DNA of 64,000 bases, taken from Thalassotalea sp. PP2-459. Lineage in GTDB: Bacteria > Pseudomonadota > Gammaproteobacteria > Enterobacterales > Alteromonadaceae. The notes beneath the pieces were generated by a model, which saw only the letters and a list, made by a program, of their open reading frames with translations, had not been told where the DNA came from and did no database searches. Position 1 is the first letter of the stretch. Every line of letters starts with the position of its first letter. The stretch lies in NCBI RefSeq assembly GCF_001913705.1, contig NZ_MKQD01000085.1:1-64000 (forward strand), written 5' to 3'. A program made the position numbers and the translations under genes. Shown piece by piece: positions 40,859 through 55,579 of this stretch.

Positions 40859-41002
40859 ACCTGCCGATATAGTTACTTACGTAAATGAATAAAATAAAGA
40901 CATGCAGGGTAATAATTTCGTCAAAAAGTTGACTTAACCATTATTCTGCTTTGTAATGGACTAAATAATAATAATACGTAACGTATTTATAGGTAGTGTT
41001 AA

Positions 41003-44000
41003 GTGCGTCTTTCTATTTCTAAATTTTTGTTCTGTAAAGATAAAAACATATTTTCCACACTCGTATTTCTTGCCGCAATTTTTCCAACTTTTTTACATGC
41101 TTCAACACAAATAAACCAACATGGCACGCCGCTTACCGTTCAGCACTTAAAGCCTGCACAAGGTTTGTCACAAAACTATGTTTTTGACATGGTGCAAGAC
41201 AAAGATGGCTTTATTTGGGTTGGTACTGATGATGGATTAAATAAATACGATGGTAAATCCTTTAAACAATATCGTTTCAATTCACTTGATGCACAATCGC
41301 TCGCCGGCAATAGTATTCGAAACTTACTAATCGATTCAAATAATAACTTATGGATTGGTACTGACAACGGCGTTAGTATTTACAATACTGAATTAGATAA
41401 CTTCACCACATTTCGCGCAGAACAAGGTAATGATAATACGCTTACCGATAATTTTGTTTGGCAAATTTATGAAGATGCCAACCACAATATTTGGGTCGCG
41501 ACCGAAAATGCATTACATCGTTTTAATAAAGAAGAACAATCATTTACTCATATAAAAGTCAGAAAAATTTCAGACAATACCTTATTAAATTTCAATGCGA
41601 TAAGAACTTTCTTCCAAGATGAAAAAGGCAATTATTGGATCAGCAACTACGATGGTGACTTTTATATTTTAACGCCAAACTTAACACCAGATACGGTATT
41701 AACCAACCAAATAGCTGAAACATTAGGCGGTCAAACCTTTAAAATTCGTCAAATTGAATACCACCAGCGTAAAAACCATTATTGGATTGCTGTCGATAAT
41801 AGCATTGTCATACTTGATAGTAATTTTGACCTTTATCGTCAATACGACTTAAACCAAACAAATAGTGCAGTGACTGAAATTAGAAGCTTTGGCAAGCTGA
41901 ACGATGCACTATACTGGGTTGGCACCGACAATGGCCTTTATTCTATTAACCCTTTAGAAGATAAAGCGTTTAAACATCAGTTTTCAAATATTACCCCGCA
42001 TGCCTTCAATACTAATATAATTAAAGTGTTTATCGATAATGAAAAACATATTTGGATTGGCAGTTTTAACGGTTTAATGAAAGCCAATTATTCCTCTTTG
42101 CTAATTTCTCATAGTAAAAACTTAGCAACTCCAATTGTTGAAAACATTGAGAATATCACGGCTCTTGAAGAACACATTTTATTGTCTAAAGATGGTGAAC
42201 TGGCGCTTTTCAATACGCAATCTAACACCCATAAAAACATTCCACTAGCACATCCAGTTGATCAAATATTTCAAACAGCCGAAGACACCTACATTGTTTC
42301 AATGCACAATGAGCTTTTTCGATTTAACAGCAAAACATTGATACCTGAAGAAATTCAACCTTGGACAACTTCAAAACGACATCAACTAGGTATTAACCTC
42401 ATTGGCCTACAAAACAAAATTTGGTACATAGAAGACTCAGGAAATCTCTCTTCTTTTGATTTATTGGATTTTTCCACACAGCCTCATTTAAACAAGAAGA
42501 AGTTTTTAAATTTATCGGCCACTAAAGATGGTAATTTGCTGCTAATTTCTACAAAAAAAGAACTTTTATATTATCAAGTTGATTCAAACTCAGTGAAAGA
42601 GTTTACGCTCAAAAATAAGCATAACTTCATTTTTGAAGACATCATTACTATCAAAGATACGACAAAGTATTTAATTCTTGGCTCAAATTCGCAAGGTGCA
42701 TTAGTGGTGAATAAAGCCAATGGTCATGGCACTTGGTTTAATGAAACATCTGGATTACTCAATAATTATATTAACGCTATAGTACTAGATAGTAATGGAA
42801 ACGCTTGGCTAAGTAGCAACAAAGGGTTTAGTTTTATTGATCTACAAACATTAGATGTAAGAAATTTTTATAAAGATTATAATCTTGAAAATAATGAAAA
42901 TTATGCCCATAGCTCAACGATAGACACCAATGGCAATATTTACTTTGGTGGAAATAACGGCTTCAATTGGTTTACACCAGACAAACTACTCGCTTTTACT
43001 TTTGAAATTTCTCCCCCCGTACTCACTTCATTATTAATCGCAAATAAAGAAGTATCGGTAACTTCAACGCCAACCAAAGATCAATTTACTTTATCCGCTC
43101 AGCTTAATACCCTAAAAGAAATTACCTTAGCGCATGTTCACTCCCCTTTTAGTATTGAATTTATATCACCAAATGCTAGCTTGCCCGAACAACTTGGCTA
43201 TCAATACCGCTTAATAGGTGTTGATGATAATTGGCTAACAGCAACCGCAAATAATTTACGAGCAACCTATACCAATTTAAGTGCTGGCAGTTATGTTTTT
43301 GAAGTTCAGGCTTATGACCGCTATTCGCCAAAAACGTATACGGCTAATAGTTTATCGATAGAAATACTGCCCCCTTGGTGGTTATCTAGTAGTGCAATTC
43401 TTGTTTATAGTCTCGTAGTACTATTGGCACTATCTTATTTATTACAACAATTTAGACATAAAAGAATTTATCACTTACAAATTAAAGAAAGTGAAGAGCG
43501 CCTTAAACTATCACTCTGGGGTAGTGGCGATGAAATGTGGGACTGGAACATTAAAAACGGTAAAATTTATCGCTCTAATATTTGGGGTACGCTTGAATTT
43601 CCACAAGATGGCAAGCGCAACTTAGGTAATAACGATGATAATGAAACCAATGTAAACAAAGGTGATATCACACGGATAACTAAAGCACTACAAGATCACT
43701 TTGACGAAAAAACAGAACATTTCGAAGCTACCTATCGTGTTAAGAACAAACTAGGTAATTGGATTTGGATTTTAGACCGCGGCAAAATAGTTGAACGCGA
43801 TGAGAAAAATAACCCTGTTCGAATGACTGGAACATTAAAAGACATCAGTCAAATAAAGAAAGCTGATGAGCGCTTAAAGTTATTTGCCAAATGCTTTGAA
43901 AACATCTCAGACGCTGTAGTCATTTACGATCGTCAATTTTTTGTTGTGGATATCAATAAAGCTTTCCAACGTATTACCGGTAAAACTAAAAAGCAAATGA

Positions 44001-45547
44001 TTGGCGAACCATTAACCTTCAGGCAATACCCTGACAGTTTCGCTAATACAGTTAAACAACACTTGTTAACCAAAGGTAGTTGGCACGGTGAAATAGAAAG
44101 TAAACGTGATGACGGTATGCTTTATCTTACCGATCTAAACATTGATATAATTCGCGATGAAAATAGCAGCATTTCTCACTTTGTCGGTGTTTTTTCAGAT
44201 ATTACCAAACGTAAAGAAACCGAAGCAGAATTACGAAAACTGGCGAACAGCGATACGTTAACAGGTTTACCAAACCGCTCATATTTCCAAGCAAACCAAA
44301 CCAGATTAGTAAAAAATAAAGTGTCTCATGCATTACTTGTTTTTGATTTAGATAATTTCAAAAAAGTGAACGACTCTATGGGGCATGAAGTTGGCGATGT
44401 TTTATTGTGTAAAGTTGCTGAGCGAATAAGAACGGTTGGTAGATCACAAGATACCGTGTATCGATTAGGGGGGGATGAGTTTAGTATCATCGTTGAAAAC
44501 ACTAACGATATCCATACGATCACAACCATCGCAAAAAATATACTACGCACTATTGCCCAACCATTAAGATTAAAAAATCACGAGATCGTACTTTATTCAA
44601 GTATTGGTATTGTACTTTATCCTGAAGATGGTGCTACTCCGCAAGAATTACTTAAAAATGCTGACACCGCGATGTACCACGCAAAAAATGCTGGTGGCAA
44701 TCGTTATAAGTTCTTTAATAGCTCCATGAATGAACAAGCAGTGAAGCGTTTACAAATAGAAGGACTTATTCGACATGGCTTAAAAGAAGATTTCTTCTCT
44801 GTGTTTTATCAACCCAAAATTGAAATCAAAACAGGTAAAATAGCGGGTATGGAAGCGCTGGTTCGATTTGAAACCCCATCTAAAGGCATTATTAGCCCAT
44901 TGACTTTTATCCCTGTTTCCGAAGAAACCGGCCAAATCATTGACATAGGAGAAGTCGTTTTACGTAAAGCATGTTATGCCACCAAAGTATGGATTGATGC
45001 CGGCTTATTCGACGGCCGTATTGCTGTAAACTTATCTGCAGTACAATTTACCCAACCTAATTTAGTTGGCATGATTGCAGAAATACTTGCTGAAACAGGC
45101 TTACCGGCAAAACACTTAGAGCTTGAAATTACCGAAGGAACGGTGATGGACTCGCCTCAACAAGCCATTGATACCATGTTACAAATTCGTGCAATGGGCA
45201 TACATTTATCACTCGATGATTTTGGTACGGGTTATTCATCATTGGCTTACTTAAAGAAATTCCCGCTGAATACGTTAAAAATTGATAAAGCCTTTGTTGA
45301 TGATATAGAACAGTCAGAGCAAGGTCGAAATATGGTAGCTACTATTGTTACCATCGCACACAACCTAAGCTTACAGGTGGTTGCTGAGGGCGTAGAAACC
45401 AATCAACAATTAAGCTTTCTGTCCGGTTTACGCTGTGAACAGTTACAAGGTTATTTGTACAGTAAACCATTAGCAACAGAAGATTTCCGTCGTTATTTAG
45501 TGTCCCATCAAATTACTGACAAATCTACGTCGTTTAACCGTTCATAA
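41003..45547 (+). CDS. Propeller-sensor GGDEF/EAL protein (bifunctional c-di-GMP enzyme)
   Basis: Membrane sensor of 1514 residues, start GTG. After a signal peptide (ending about HAST), a periplasmic two-component-regulator beta-propeller runs over about residues 45-700, recognisable by repeated blades such as DGFIWVGTDDGLNKYDG and NNLWIGTDNGVSIYN. A Y_Y_Y domain (about 715-787) precedes one membrane helix near 797-816. Inside the cell are two PAS/PAC domains, then GGDEF at 1156-1160 with an intact RSQD inhibitory site five residues before it, and EAL at 1284-1286 with DDFGTGYSSL, EGVE and QGY. Both activities look intact, so output direction depends on the signal. The ligand is unknown; related propellers are often found on polysaccharide-responsive sensors. 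Confidence 0.92.
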   Translation: MRLSISKFLFCKDKNIFSTLVFLAAIFPTFLHASTQINQHGTPLTVQHLKPAQGLSQNYVFDMVQDKDGFIWVGTDDGLNKYDGKSFKQYRFNSLDAQSLAGNSIRNLLIDSNNNLWIGTDNGVSIYNTELDNFTTFRAEQGNDNTLTDNFVWQIYEDANHNIWVATENALHRFNKEEQSFTHIKVRKISDNTLLNFNAIRTFFQDEKGNYWISNYDGDFYILTPNLTPDTVLTNQIAETLGGQTFKIRQIEYHQRKNHYWIAVDNSIVILDSNFDLYRQYDLNQTNSAVTEIRSFGKLNDALYWVGTDNGLYSINPLEDKAFKHQFSNITPHAFNTNIIKVFIDNEKHIWIGSFNGLMKANYSSLLISHSKNLATPIVENIENITALEEHILLSKDGELALFNTQSNTHKNIPLAHPVDQIFQTAEDTYIVSMHNELFRFNSKTLIPEEIQPWTTSKRHQLGINLIGLQNKIWYIEDSGNLSSFDLLDFSTQPHLNKKKFLNLSATKDGNLLLISTKKELLYYQVDSNSVKEFTLKNKHNFIFEDIITIKDTTKYLILGSNSQGALVVNKANGHGTWFNETSGLLNNYINAIVLDSNGNAWLSSNKGFSFIDLQTLDVRNFYKDYNLENNENYAHSSTIDTNGNIYFGGNNGFNWFTPDKLLAFTFEISPPVLTSLLIANKEVSVTSTPTKDQFTLSAQLNTLKEITLAHVHSPFSIEFISPNASLPEQLGYQYRLIGVDDNWLTATANNLRATYTNLSAGSYVFEVQAYDRYSPKTYTANSLSIEILPPWWLSSSAILVYSLVVLLALSYLLQQFRHKRIYHLQIKESEERLKLSLWGSGDEMWDWNIKNGKIYRSNIWGTLEFPQDGKRNLGNNDDNETNVNKGDITRITKALQDHFDEKTEHFEATYRVKNKLGNWIWILDRGKIVERDEKNNPVRMTGTLKDISQIKKADERLKLFAKCFENISDAVVIYDRQFFVVDINKAFQRITGKTKKQMIGEPLTFRQYPDSFANTVKQHLLTKGSWHGEIESKRDDGMLYLTDLNIDIIRDENSSISHFVGVFSDITKRKETEAELRKLANSDTLTGLPNRSYFQANQTRLVKNKVSHALLVFDLDNFKKVNDSMGHEVGDVLLCKVAERIRTVGRSQDTVYRLGGDEFSIIVENTNDIHTITTIAKNILRTIAQPLRLKNHEIVLYSSIGIVLYPEDGATPQELLKNADTAMYHAKNAGGNRYKFFNSSMNEQAVKRLQIEGLIRHGLKEDFFSVFYQPKIEIKTGKIAGMEALVRFETPSKGIISPLTFIPVSEETGQIIDIGEVVLRKACYATKVWIDAGLFDGRIAVNLSAVQFTQPNLVGMIAEILAETGLPAKHLELEITEGTVMDSPQQAIDTMLQIRAMGIHLSLDDFGTGYSSLAYLKKFPLNTLKIDKAFVDDIEQSEQGRNMVATIVTIAHNLSLQVVAEGVETNQQLSFLSGLRCEQLQGYLYSKPLATEDFRRYLVSHQITDKSTSFNRS

Positions 45548-45560
45548 TAATGAACGCCGT

Positions 45561-45594
45561 ATTTTTAGCCGTCAGATTTATGACGGCTAAAAAT
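45561..45594. terminator. Perfect 14-bp hairpin after the GGDEF/EAL gene
   Basis: ATTTTTAGCCGTCA-GATTTA-TGACGGCTAAAAAT, 14 bp after the stop. The T-run is on the 5' side and the A-run on the 3' side of the GC core, opposite to a classical intrinsic terminator, so termination is uncertain even though the stem is strong. Confidence 0.5.
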
Positions 45595-45720
45595 AAACGC
45601 GAGACTCACTGCTCTCTGACCCTCTACTTATACTGATATTACACATATTTTCCACATTGGCACATTAATCGCTTATTCCTAGTTGCGTTTACAATCATAA
45701 CCAATAAAGGAAAATAAAAA

Positions 45721-45999
45721 ATGTTAAGTTCAATCATCTTATCTTTGGTAGTTAATACATCACCGACTCCTGTAGTTGATCAAGATTCATTAACCATTGA
45801 ACAAGTAGGTAGAAAAGTAAGTACAGTGCGTATTAATAATGATTTTGCTGTTGAAAAAACAGGCCGTAAGGTAAGTACTGTTCGTATTAGTAATGACTTT
45901 GCCGTTGAAAAAACGGGTCGTAAGGTAAGTACTGTTCGTATTAATAATGACTTTGCCGTTGAAAAAACGGGCCGTAAAGTAAGTACTGTTAGAATTTAA
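45721..45999 (+). CDS. Small tandem-repeat protein (18-residue units), function unknown
   Basis: A 92-residue protein I cannot assign to a family. Residues 1-19 are mildly hydrophobic without the basic N terminus of a good signal peptide. From Gly30 it consists of three full units, GRKVSTVRINNDFAVEKT with small variation (30-47, 48-65, 66-83), and a final half unit GRKVSTVRI (84-92) forming the C terminus. Units 1 and 3 encode identical residues with eight silent differences, so coding is real. The alternation suggests two short strands per unit (KVSTVRI, FAVEK) with NND and TGR turns, as in a beta-solenoid or amyloid-like repeat; a cleaved repeat precursor is another possibility. AAAGGAAAA precedes the ATG, and a 33-codon gene follows after 9 bp. 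Confidence 0.75.
   Translation: MLSSIILSLVVNTSPTPVVDQDSLTIEQVGRKVSTVRINNDFAVEKTGRKVSTVRISNDFAVEKTGRKVSTVRINNDFAVEKTGRKVSTVRI
45808..45996 (+). repeat. 54-bp in-frame tandem repeat, 3.5 copies
   Basis: Units at 45808-45861, 45862-45915 and 45916-45969, plus a half unit 45970-45996. Units 2 and 3 differ at 2 of 54 bases; units 1 and 3 differ at 8, all silent. Confidence 0.95.
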
Positions 46000-46008
46000 G
46001 GTGTAAAT

Positions 46009-46110
46009 ATGTTGAGATTTATCAAGGATATCTTCGCTATCGCACCAAAAGAAAATGCGATTGCAGCGAAAATTATCATTAAAGAATTACCAGCTGCTAC
46101 GTCATTATAG
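46009..46110 (+). CDS. 33-residue peptide encoded after the repeat protein
   Basis: An open frame of 33 codons (begins MLRFIKDIFAIAPKEN, ends ELPAATSL) with a well placed AAGGTG that overlaps the stop of the upstream repeat gene, implying coupled translation. The N-terminal half is an amphipathic helix candidate with Lys/Arg and bulky hydrophobics. I do not recognise it. Its shortness means coding is supported only by the ribosome site, spacing and lack of other content in the region. Confidence 0.5.
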   Translation: MLRFIKDIFAIAPKENAIAAKIIIKELPAATSL

Positions 46111-46184: not shown

Positions 46185-46385
46185 TTAAGCACGCAGAATA
46201 AGTGCATTCCAACCAAATAAACTATTCACTTTCATTCGTTTTTTCATACAAAACATTGGCCAAACAAATGGACCAAACACAAAGCCAGCAAATGCCCAAC
46301 GCTTTCGACCCAAGCCACTTGTAAATGCCTGACAGTAAAAGAATAAAGCTGAGAATAACGCTAATACAGGAATTAAAAACAACAT
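46185..46385 (-). CDS. Small hydrophobic membrane protein, unknown function
   Basis: About 66 residues from ATG 46385 (a TTG at 46400 would add five). One clear membrane helix (MLFLIPVLALFSALFFYCQAF) and a second hydrophobic stretch (WAFAGFVFGPFVWPMFCM) are separated by GLGRKR, giving a hairpin topology with basic loop and tail. No family is recognised. It lies downstream of the fadJ terminator on the same strand, so probably has its own promoter. Confidence 0.5.
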   Translation of the reverse strand: MLFLIPVLALFSALFFYCQAFTSGLGRKRWAFAGFVFGPFVWPMFCMKKRMKVNSLFGWNALILRA

Positions 46386-46518
46386 AACAATTAGTTCCAA
46401 TGCGACTTATAAAGATGAATTGGCGCGTATTATAGACAATTAGAGTATTTATTCAACAACTTTAGAGTATTTAAACTAACTTATCATCCATAAATGTTTA
46501 ATGCGTTTATATGTAATA

Positions 46519-53790: not shown

Positions 53791-55579
53791 TTTTCACTTC
53801 ATTCGACCTTGGTGGTTGTTAGCTACCGTAGGGTTAATTATTACCCTTTATTTACTGAAAAAACATAATGTTAATCAATCGGGTTGGCAAAAATTAATTC
53901 CTAAACATTTAGCAAATGTACTCATCGAAGGCAAACAGAGTGCAAAGGGATTATCGTTAACTATTCCCTTTTTAATAGGATTATTAGCGATCGTGGCACT
54001 TGCTGGCCCAACCTGGAAAAAATTACCCCAGCCTGTATATCAATTGGCACGTGGTTCGGTGTTAATTATGGATATGTCGTATTCAATGTATGCAACTGAT
54101 ATATCCCCTAATAGGTTAACCAGAGCTCGCTACAAAGCCATAGACTTATTAGAAAAATTGAACGAAGGTGAAATAGGCTTAATCGCTTATGCAGGCGATG
54201 CTTTTACCATTAGTCCATTAACAGAAGATATTAACAACATTGAATTACTGTTACCGTCTTTAAGTCCAGATCTTATGCCTGCTCTTGGTAGTAACCCATA
54301 TGCAGCTTTGGCTTTAGCCAGCGATATGTTAAAAAATGCTGGTCATGTTGAAGGCGATGTCTATTGGTTTACTGACGGCATTGATCAAGAAGATGTACAA
54401 GATCTCACGAATTGGGTCAGAGAAAACCCATATCGTTTAAATATAATGGGGATCGGAACCACAGCAGGTGCGCCAATAAAATTACCGAATGGTCAATTAC
54501 TCAAAGATGACAGTGGTGCGATTGTGGTACCCAAGTTATCAGAAAACTTATTATCCACCGTTGCAGCACAAGGCAAAGGACAATATGCTCGCATGGTAAA
54601 CAGTAATCAAGATATTGACACCATTGTATTACCGCCAATAAAGCACGATGCAGAAAGTAACAATGAAAGTTCACAAACCGGCGATCAATGGCAAGAGTTT
54701 GGACCTTACCTAGTGTTATTAATGTTACCTTTAGTTTTGCTATATTTCCGTCGTGGAAAACTACTTACCCTAGTACCTATTTTATTCTTAATGACACCAA
54801 GCAAGCCCGTTTATGCTGACTTCTGGCAGAATTTATGGCAAACGAAAGATCAACAAGGTCAAGCCTTATACAACGCTAAAGATTATGAAAAAGCTGCCAA
54901 TACTTTTGAAGATCCAATGTGGCAAGGCAGTGCACATTACCAGGCGGGTAACTATCAAGCAGCACTTGACGCTTTTTCAAAGGGTCATGACGCCGATGCT
55001 TTATTCAATCAAGGAAACGCACTGGCTAAATTACAACAATTCGACGAGGCACTTGCTGCCTACGATAAAGCGTTAGAGTTAAACCCAGAGCTACAAGACG
55101 CCAAAGAAAATAAAGCGTTGGTAGAACAATTAAAACAGCAACAAGAACAACAACAAAATCAAGATAATCAACAGAATAAAGATCAAAATCAACAAGAAGA
55201 AAATAACGAACAACAAAGCGATCAAAACCAACAACAAGAACAAGAAAAAAATCAGCAGCAAAGTGAAGACCAACAAGAGCAAAATAAAGAACAGCAACAA
55301 CAGGCAGCTCAAGACCAGCAAAAAGAGCAAGAACAAGAGCAAAATCCTGAACAAGAAAATCAAGCCCAAGAAAAGCCTGAGCAGCAACCCGAGCAGCAAC
55401 AGGAACAACAAGCTAAGGCAGCTAAAGCCCAACAAGAACAAGAAATGGAGCAAAAGCATCAGCAACTGTTAAATAAAGTCACTGATGATCCTTACTTATT
55501 ATTGCGTAATAAAATGCAGTTGGAATATCAAAAACGTCGTCAAAATAGAACCAGCGTAGGAGCACAGAAAAAGTGGTAA
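53783..55579 (+). CDS. VWA/TPR membrane protein with Gln-rich tail, BatB-BatC-like
   Basis: 598 residues from ATG 53783 (an in-frame GTG at 53774 is less likely). The first half is BatB-like: membrane helices near both ends and a VWA domain with the DMSYSM metal site (about 97-102). The second half is BatC-like: a predicted membrane helix near 310-330, then TPR repeats (about 350-437). Residues about 449-562 are extremely rich in Gln, Glu and Asn, encoded by a mix of CAA and CAG. The tail closes with a basic segment. The combination equals a BatB-BatC fusion. Confidence 0.9.
   Translation: MADFHFIRPWWLLATVGLIITLYLLKKHNVNQSGWQKLIPKHLANVLIEGKQSAKGLSLTIPFLIGLLAIVALAGPTWKKLPQPVYQLARGSVLIMDMSYSMYATDISPNRLTRARYKAIDLLEKLNEGEIGLIAYAGDAFTISPLTEDINNIELLLPSLSPDLMPALGSNPYAALALASDMLKNAGHVEGDVYWFTDGIDQEDVQDLTNWVRENPYRLNIMGIGTTAGAPIKLPNGQLLKDDSGAIVVPKLSENLLSTVAAQGKGQYARMVNSNQDIDTIVLPPIKHDAESNNESSQTGDQWQEFGPYLVLLMLPLVLLYFRRGKLLTLVPILFLMTPSKPVYADFWQNLWQTKDQQGQALYNAKDYEKAANTFEDPMWQGSAHYQAGNYQAALDAFSKGHDADALFNQGNALAKLQQFDEALAAYDKALELNPELQDAKENKALVEQLKQQQEQQQNQDNQQNKDQNQQEENNEQQSDQNQQQEQEKNQQQSEDQQEQNKEQQQQAAQDQQKEQEQEQNPEQENQAQEKPEQQPEQQQEQQAKAAKAQQEQEMEQKHQQLLNKVTDDPYLLLRNKMQLEYQKRRQNRTSVGAQKKW

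Follow-up and report, generated by a model that had tools for sequence, protein, structure and literature searches.

The window, a 64,000-nucleotide stretch of DNA from Thalassotalea sp. PP2-459, contains a small gene made largely of tandem repeats (ORF1), which lies between the gene for a large membrane receptor and a second small gene (ORF2). The features of this locus, with coordinates in the window, strand, and the basis of each assignment, are:

41003..45547, plus strand: receptor, 1514 aa, GTG start (Pfam; hydropathy and motifs; synteny)
45571..45584, no strand: palindrome GTCA-N6-TGAC, a candidate enhancer at which a sigma54 activator may bind (conservation score)
45657..45673, plus strand: sigma54-type promoter TTGGCACATTAATCGCT (motif scoring)
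45721..45999, plus strand: ORF1, putative repeat peptide precursor, 92 aa (ORF list and unit comparison)
45721..45807, plus strand: ORF1 leader MLSSIILSLVVNTSPTPVVDQDSLTIEQV, with a hydrophobic N terminus (conserved leader profile)
45808..45834, plus strand: core 1, GRKVSTVRI (unit comparison)
45862..45888, plus strand: core 2, GRKVSTVRI (unit comparison)
45916..45942, plus strand: core 3, GRKVSTVRI (unit comparison)
45970..45996, plus strand: core 4, GRKVSTVRI, ending exactly at the C terminus (unit comparison)
46009..46110, plus strand: ORF2, 33 aa, MLRFIKDIFAIAPKENAIAAKIIIKELPAATSL, with WWx as the ending of most relatives (ORF2 profile and relatives)
46185-46400, minus strand: conserved membrane-type protein, 63-75 aa among loci (recurrence at 42 of 58 loci, with ORF2 on one side and fadJ on the other)

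ORF1 comprises 3.5 units of GRKVSTVRINNDFAVEKT, which start at 45808, 45862, 45916, and 45970; Tandem Repeats Finder gives the array a period of 54, 3.2 copies, 91% matches, and a score of 292. A first-pass annotation of this DNA had described a 92-residue protein with three and a half repeat copies, in which units 1 and 3 encode the same residues and differ by eight silent base changes, and both descriptions are accurate: units 1 and 3 have 8 base differences and 0 residue differences, and units 1 and 2 have 10 and 1, respectively. Its further conclusion, that the amino acids rather than the DNA are conserved, holds across 43 repeat-bearing loci (the window's included), in which adjacent units have a dN of 0.100 and a dS of 0.365. 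Given this dN/dS of 0.27, there is selection on the repeats at the protein level. As had also been surmised, the motif belongs to no known family: ORF1, ORF2, and two relatives gave nothing over the curated cut-off in Pfam or NCBIfam, only sub-threshold noise, and six further relatives of the small ORFs likewise gave nothing over the cut-off. The leader of the window ORF1 has neither a basic n-region nor a clear signal peptidase site.

When the full ORF1 protein was searched against genome contigs, as the first-pass annotation had proposed, it found a single locus, in Thalassotalea sp. 1_MG-2023 (L030, 95%); it was profiles of the leader and of ORF2, run over 295 genomes of the family, that then found the diverged relatives, roughly 70 genomes having an ORF2 match at an E value of about 1e-5 or lower. 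(L and G numbers denote loci and genomes, and f and g numbers are working labels for families and genera.) Sixty profile-found loci were read, of which L098 was false and 58 were clustered. The clusters that recur around these 58 are the receptor (52 loci), a small TM protein (42), fadJ (56), fadI, and a MoxR-like protein, single genes being partly annotated. Since fadJ and the receptor recur in this way, the locus is not accessory, contrary to the original placement of ORF1 in an accessory block. A recurrent modifying or processing enzyme, as would mark a RiPP locus, was not found among the ORFs up to about 5 kb on either side of ORF1 at the 58 loci.

Repeat-type ORF1 proteins combine a short hydrophobic leader with species-specific cores, such as GRKGIRI, GTRRGTIRI, ATRRGMIRI, GKNRGEGIRV, GKSHGKVRI, and GSTRIRI. 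Of 56 readable ORF1 sequences, 42 end exactly at R or K followed by I, V, L, or M, and the remainder have short tails or variants, one with an N-run. The unit ranges from 7-10 aa without a spacer up to about 20 aa with one, and the comparison of copy number that had been suggested gives 1 (L096, L120-L122, L142) to 14 (L111) copies of the 7-10 aa core, L120-L122 having a lone C-terminal core (GRGNRGVRI, GRRSVRI, and ARGNRGSVKI). Repeats are therefore optional. In the draft assemblies of L005, L090, L095, and L144, the sequence breaks off within the ORF1 array or next to it, and copy numbers counted in drafts may hence be too low.

Sixty further loci were reached through a FadJ anchor, from genomes without ORF2 by profile; 30 of these have a receptor with a periplasmic domain, and a peptide gene is present in all 30. 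Each of these 30 genes is a small ORF of a second type, located behind a sigma54-type promoter; the leader (MLKAYAVAL...) differs from that of the repeat type, the C terminus varies (WKPGSVRI, AIKVGSVRF, RPGNGIGF), and at three loci there are three tandem copies of KPGGGIGF. Only a single core is found at 28 of 31 second-leader-type loci and at 5 of 56 repeat-type loci, and thus single-core forms occur among the relatives together with separate repeat expansions that have other cores. The C termini of L204, L252, and L257 carry cysteines (RLCRKHCTISF, CRCGIIK, and CECGIITY) and are perhaps disulfide-linked peptides.

ORF2, which is absent from the first-pass annotation, begins 9 nt past the ORF1 stop codon. 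Its relatives have 33-38 aa and end mostly in WWx in several families, and several loci of genus g76 (L102, L104, L105, L107, L109, L110, L111, and L113) have two copies. An ORF2-like gene, recognized by WW plus one residue or by W within the last three residues, is present at 49 of 56 repeat-type loci; the same motif occurs at 2 of 31 second-type loci, where it is taken for a chance match. ORF2 may aid the export, processing, or membrane targeting of ORF1. Beyond it, on the opposite strand, lie the membrane-type protein, here of 71 aa, for which no family was found in Pfam or NCBIfam, and then fadJ/fadI.

The first-pass annotation favored a beta-solenoid or amyloid-like fold for ORF1, with a multi-copy peptide precursor as an alternative. 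A structural protein of the envelope or biofilm would be in keeping with the strand-like V-R-I rhythm of the repeats and with the c-di-GMP neighbor, which often implies biofilm. However, among the relatives one-core forms exist, and unit length, unit sequence, and copy number change to such an extent that neither a conserved unit length nor the fixed register of a solenoid is kept; furthermore, ORF1 pairs with the periplasmic domain of the receptor (see below), and AlphaFold2 returned no solenoid and a mean pLDDT of 38.8, a result that is weak either way, its alignment consisting of the window sequence and one near-identical relative. A structural role is thus scarcely credible, and the precursor alternative appears to be the better supported of the two.

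The repeat-type cores are also small and basic, which raises the question of a cationic antimicrobial or kin-discrimination peptide that the GGDEF-EAL protein senses or from which it protects the producer; such weapons commonly diverge fast. However, other cores, for example KPGGGIGF and GAPNVRWLDTQVA, are hardly basic, no recurrent immunity or export genes lie beside the 58 clustered loci, and the partner is a signaling enzyme. Consequently, this explanation is quite improbable. Binding of c-di-GMP by an RxxxR motif in the cores was considered and dropped, several cores having no RxxxR on inspection.

A sigma54-type promoter scoring at least 8 of 11 was found at all 85 peptide loci with enough upstream DNA (L095 and L192, with short upstream sequences, were left out), compared with 14% of shuffles, and one scoring at least 9 of 11 at 79 of the 85, compared with 2.3%; its distance to the start codon is 36-90 nt. 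The palindrome, which may also serve as a terminator hairpin, scored at least 8 of 10 in 32 of 55 loci against 2.4 expected, and upon rescoring it was found at 34 of 55 repeat-type loci (strong) and 8 of 30 second-type loci (weak), where about 9% would be expected. The window has two matches to GTCA-N6-TGAC against 0.6 expected, the sole other one lying at 40920-40933, about 70 nt 5' of the receptor gene. The exact palindrome-plus-promoter pattern, searched in four genomes, matched only in G010, and the other sigma54-type sites of G000 (17 sites versus 9 in a reversed-pattern control) did not reveal the activator. At L160 (G000:C38:111607), a sigma54-type site has a GTGTCA-N6-TGACAC-like palindrome (11/12) about 150 nt upstream.

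Membership in the PEP-CTERM/PrsR sigma54 regulon was considered and rejected. That regulon shares with the module a sigma54-type promoter with an enhancer motif upstream, there in front of genes for small exported proteins (PMC1569441), and 11 of 12 genomes have a PrsR-type protein that passes the cut-off, including G012 and G139, which have the other peptide type. However, PrsR motif 1, compared as its published text gives it, has the 3' end TTTACA (PMC1569441), whereas the module has TGTCA-N6-TGACA, and ORF1 lacks a PEP-CTERM tail.

The receptor gene upstream of ORF1 bears out the earlier remark that a c-di-GMP protein adjoins the repeats. Its product has a signal-peptide-like N terminus, periplasmic Reg_prop repeats, a Y_Y_Y domain, one clear TM near residues 791-815 (by hydropathy), PAS domains, GGDEF, and EAL, and the GGDEF (1156), EAL (1284), and RxxD I-site motifs are intact. 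We know of no ligand for most membrane GGDEF-EAL proteins. In long alignments with the window's proteins, repeat-type receptors have 28-40% identity in the periplasmic part and 65-90% in the output (PAS-GGDEF-EAL), and FadJ of the same loci has 63-81%. A small control, confined to one genome pair, compared G128 with G097: two further Reg_prop proteins have periplasmic/rest identities of 74/70% and 47/64%, while this receptor in the same pair has 45/93.5%. A receptor search at E<=1e-150 was too strict, matching 9 of 295 genomes.

As would be expected of a pheromone system, the small precursor gene adjoins the gene for a membrane receptor, and the two also occur together. In the family sample, all 110 loci scored have either both a receptor with a periplasmic domain and a peptide gene (82) or neither of them (28). 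These 110 were taken from 120; left out were L090, L098, L106, and L143, whose stretches lack fadJ; L190, whose fadJ piece was too short (with receptor and peptide both present); L192 and L202, which are uninformative; and L095, L113, and L144, whose contigs stop short of the receptor. The receptor was scored by hand as present for L088 and L140, from one found elsewhere in the genome, and L177 was scored as having neither, though G182 has both elsewhere. On the FadJ tree of the 110 loci, receptor and peptide each require 7 parsimonious changes, which are concordant. On its well-supported branches, five of five independent pairs are concordant; with only five such pairs, the sign test (p 0.0625) falls short of 0.05.

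Among the 60 ORF2-lacking loci, a peptide gene (either profile, in the stretch) was found at 0 of 16 loci with a GGDEF-EAL protein without the periplasmic domain and at 0 of 12 without a receptor, L192, where the peptide lies at the end of the stretch, and L202, where the contig ends, being uninformative; for the 16 short-form loci, the whole-genome receptor search covers G071, G109, G020, and G089, with one match each. Repeat cassettes without an adjacent receptor in G304, G315, and G145 have a full receptor elsewhere in the genome. For the 12 genomes that lack a receptor at fadJ, the entire genome was searched with the receptor output half: no receptor was found anywhere in G008, G059, G230, G294, G270, G245, G282, G159, and G104; G024 and G023 have a short GGDEF-EAL form without a peptide; and in G182 a full receptor and an ORF1/ORF2 cassette lie together at another place than fadJ. 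This real cassette scored only E 0.18 in the profile search, and thus unlinked peptide genes may be missed in the 28 loci with neither. These findings bear on the idea that the receptor and ORF1 are chance neighbors, sharing only an inherited place and each evolving fast independently. Synteny is conserved with few changes, and ancestry is not fully removed from the correlation tests given below, both of which would suit that idea; however, joint losses, joint retention when unlinked, joint relocation, and the absence of the peptide where only the periplasmic domain is absent make it very improbable.

Co-divergence was examined in the 77 loci in which the core could be read and the periplasmic part had 650 residues or more. 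The partial rank correlation of core with periplasmic part, given the output, is 0.24 overall, 0.31 for 47 repeat-type loci, and 0.41 for 30 second-type loci, with a permutation p of 0.0005, which is the smallest reachable and from which shared ancestry is not fully removed; the reverse partial, of core with output given the periplasmic part, is 0.13, 0.09, and 0.31, respectively. For the 48 pairs whose outputs share 93% identity or more, rho between core and periplasmic part is 0.73 and between core and output 0.51. Mean core similarity is 0.38 in the 12 of these pairs in which periplasmic identity is below 60% (output 94.7%) and 0.74 in the other 36 (output 96.7%). For example, L101 and L103 have 94% identity in the output, 48% in the periplasmic part, and the cores GRTKVRI and AKGRGIKV. 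Fast periplasmic divergence alone would yield part of the correlation. Nevertheless, core and sensor are hypervariable and co-diverge while the output is conserved, as in a pheromone system, ancestry being partly corrected for. A peptide gene that tracks the periplasmic domain, joint fast change, and a constant output form the pattern that would be expected of a ligand and its receptor.

Taken together, these sequence comparisons suggest that ORF1 is probably a secreted precursor whose short peptide serves as the ligand of the adjacent receptor and controls c-di-GMP; in this model, the ligand in the window would probably be GRKVSTVRI, in four copies. The sigma54 RNA polymerase, with an activator, would transcribe ORF1-ORF2, and ORF1 would reach the periplasm by means of its hydrophobic leader. 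The array would then be cut, or kept as a multivalent chain, presenting the core to the periplasmic beta-propeller/Y_Y_Y domain, and binding would send a signal through the membrane that alters c-di-GMP synthesis or breakdown. Repeats would provide more ligand per precursor and be easily gained and lost. In this model, export, cleavage, and binding are inferred, as are the direction of the c-di-GMP change and any action between cells. True pheromone action of the peptide from cell to cell falls, in our judgment, a little short of an even chance. Because core and sensor diverge together and the output is conserved, as in peptide pheromones, species-restricted (self) recognition is probable.

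Another hypothesis retains the pairing and dispenses with processing. Here, ORF1 would be neither cut nor shared and would act as a periplasmic partner chain of the receptor of the same cell, its repeated cores binding or clustering several receptors, either as a cis-acting regulatory subunit or as a ligand that reports stress. Co-occurrence, co-divergence, and variable copy number could all be explained in this way without a protease, and no processing enzyme recurs nearby. However, many species have a single core, so that multivalency would be optional, and two hypervariable partners point more typically to self/non-self signaling. This hypothesis deserves to be taken seriously but is unlikely, and the secreted ligand is preferred.

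Agr, ComX/ComP, and ComC/ComD are peptide pheromone systems of Gram-positive bacteria. Like the module, they have a hypervariable ribosomal peptide encoded beside a membrane receptor with a hypervariable sensor and a conserved output. Unlike them, the module has a Gram-negative receptor in which a periplasmic propeller is joined to PAS-GGDEF-EAL; its precursor gene has a sigma54-type promoter and in many cases encodes a tandem array, and a recurrent processing or export gene was not found nearby. Multi-copy precursors such as yeast alpha-factor resemble the module in having a leader, repeated short cores, acidic spacers, and a variable copy number; the module is bacterial, has another leader, and would be processed only by presumption. 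The hybrid two-component systems of Bacteroides use Reg_prop/Y_Y_Y sensors in glycan sensing and thus share the module's type of periplasmic sensor, with histidine kinase and DNA-binding modules as outputs. BDSF is a fatty-acid-type small molecule, and the RpfR/BDSF system therefore differs from the module in that its ligand is no ribosomal peptide; its sensing part is also another one. RpfR/BDSF of Burkholderia is, however, a case in which a cell-cell signal feeds directly into a PAS-GGDEF-EAL protein (PMC13220807), as is proposed here. Ribosomal peptide signaling is treated there as mainly Gram-positive (PMC13220807). A description of the module was not found, by title or abstract opening, in the literature searched, which included few subscription papers and no preprints. 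The module would work like a peptide pheromone system, and, as no described family matched, it is not filed under any described one.

Similar modules are also present in other families of the order. The receptor output half matches 109 of 394 genomes of the order. Among the 30 order-wide loci returned, some of them already known, the peptide gene is present with 23 of 25 full-length receptors and with 0 of 5 shorter ones; L262 and L264, from one genus, have a full receptor and no adjacent peptide gene within 1.4 kb downstream. Twenty further stretches were read, three of which are repeat loci already known. No adjacent peptide gene was found for the f6 second copies (L281, L282) or the f7 and f4 receptors (L290-L293), whose ligands may be encoded elsewhere or differ. 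Nine loci in f6, f16, and f20 have new precursors, mostly tandem arrays with unrelated cores (AGFPHVKFKPMEV, GAPNVRWLDTQVA, HIPIRF, RIQIRI), and in f6 and f16 precursors (L276, L278, L280, L288, L289) signal peptides are recognizable by eye. ORF2-like genes that end in WW plus one residue also lie 3' of ORF1 in members of f6, f15, and f20, and none was found in L278, L288, and L289; at two f15 loci, a small ORF is followed by an ORF2-like gene.

It is possible, although we place it slightly on the doubtful side, that these loci represent an order-wide Gram-negative pheromone system, in which hypervariable, often tandem-repeat peptides, made behind a sigma54 promoter and with a WW-ending partner in many lineages, would be read by periplasmic propeller receptors that diverge along with them and set c-di-GMP directly, for species-specific communication about surface life. 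If true, this would be a type of peptide signaling for which we know of no Gram-negative example. The module offers a candidate ligand, a receptor, and specificity data for many species together, and it makes testable both a wide use of peptide pheromones by Gram-negative bacteria and what such periplasmic Reg_prop sensors bind. It would also account for small, species-specific repeat ORFs, a class absent from Pfam and NCBIfam. Elsewhere in the window, at 55142-55338, there are low-identity tandem repeats, rich in CAA/GAA, which are probably a Q/E/K-rich protein segment.
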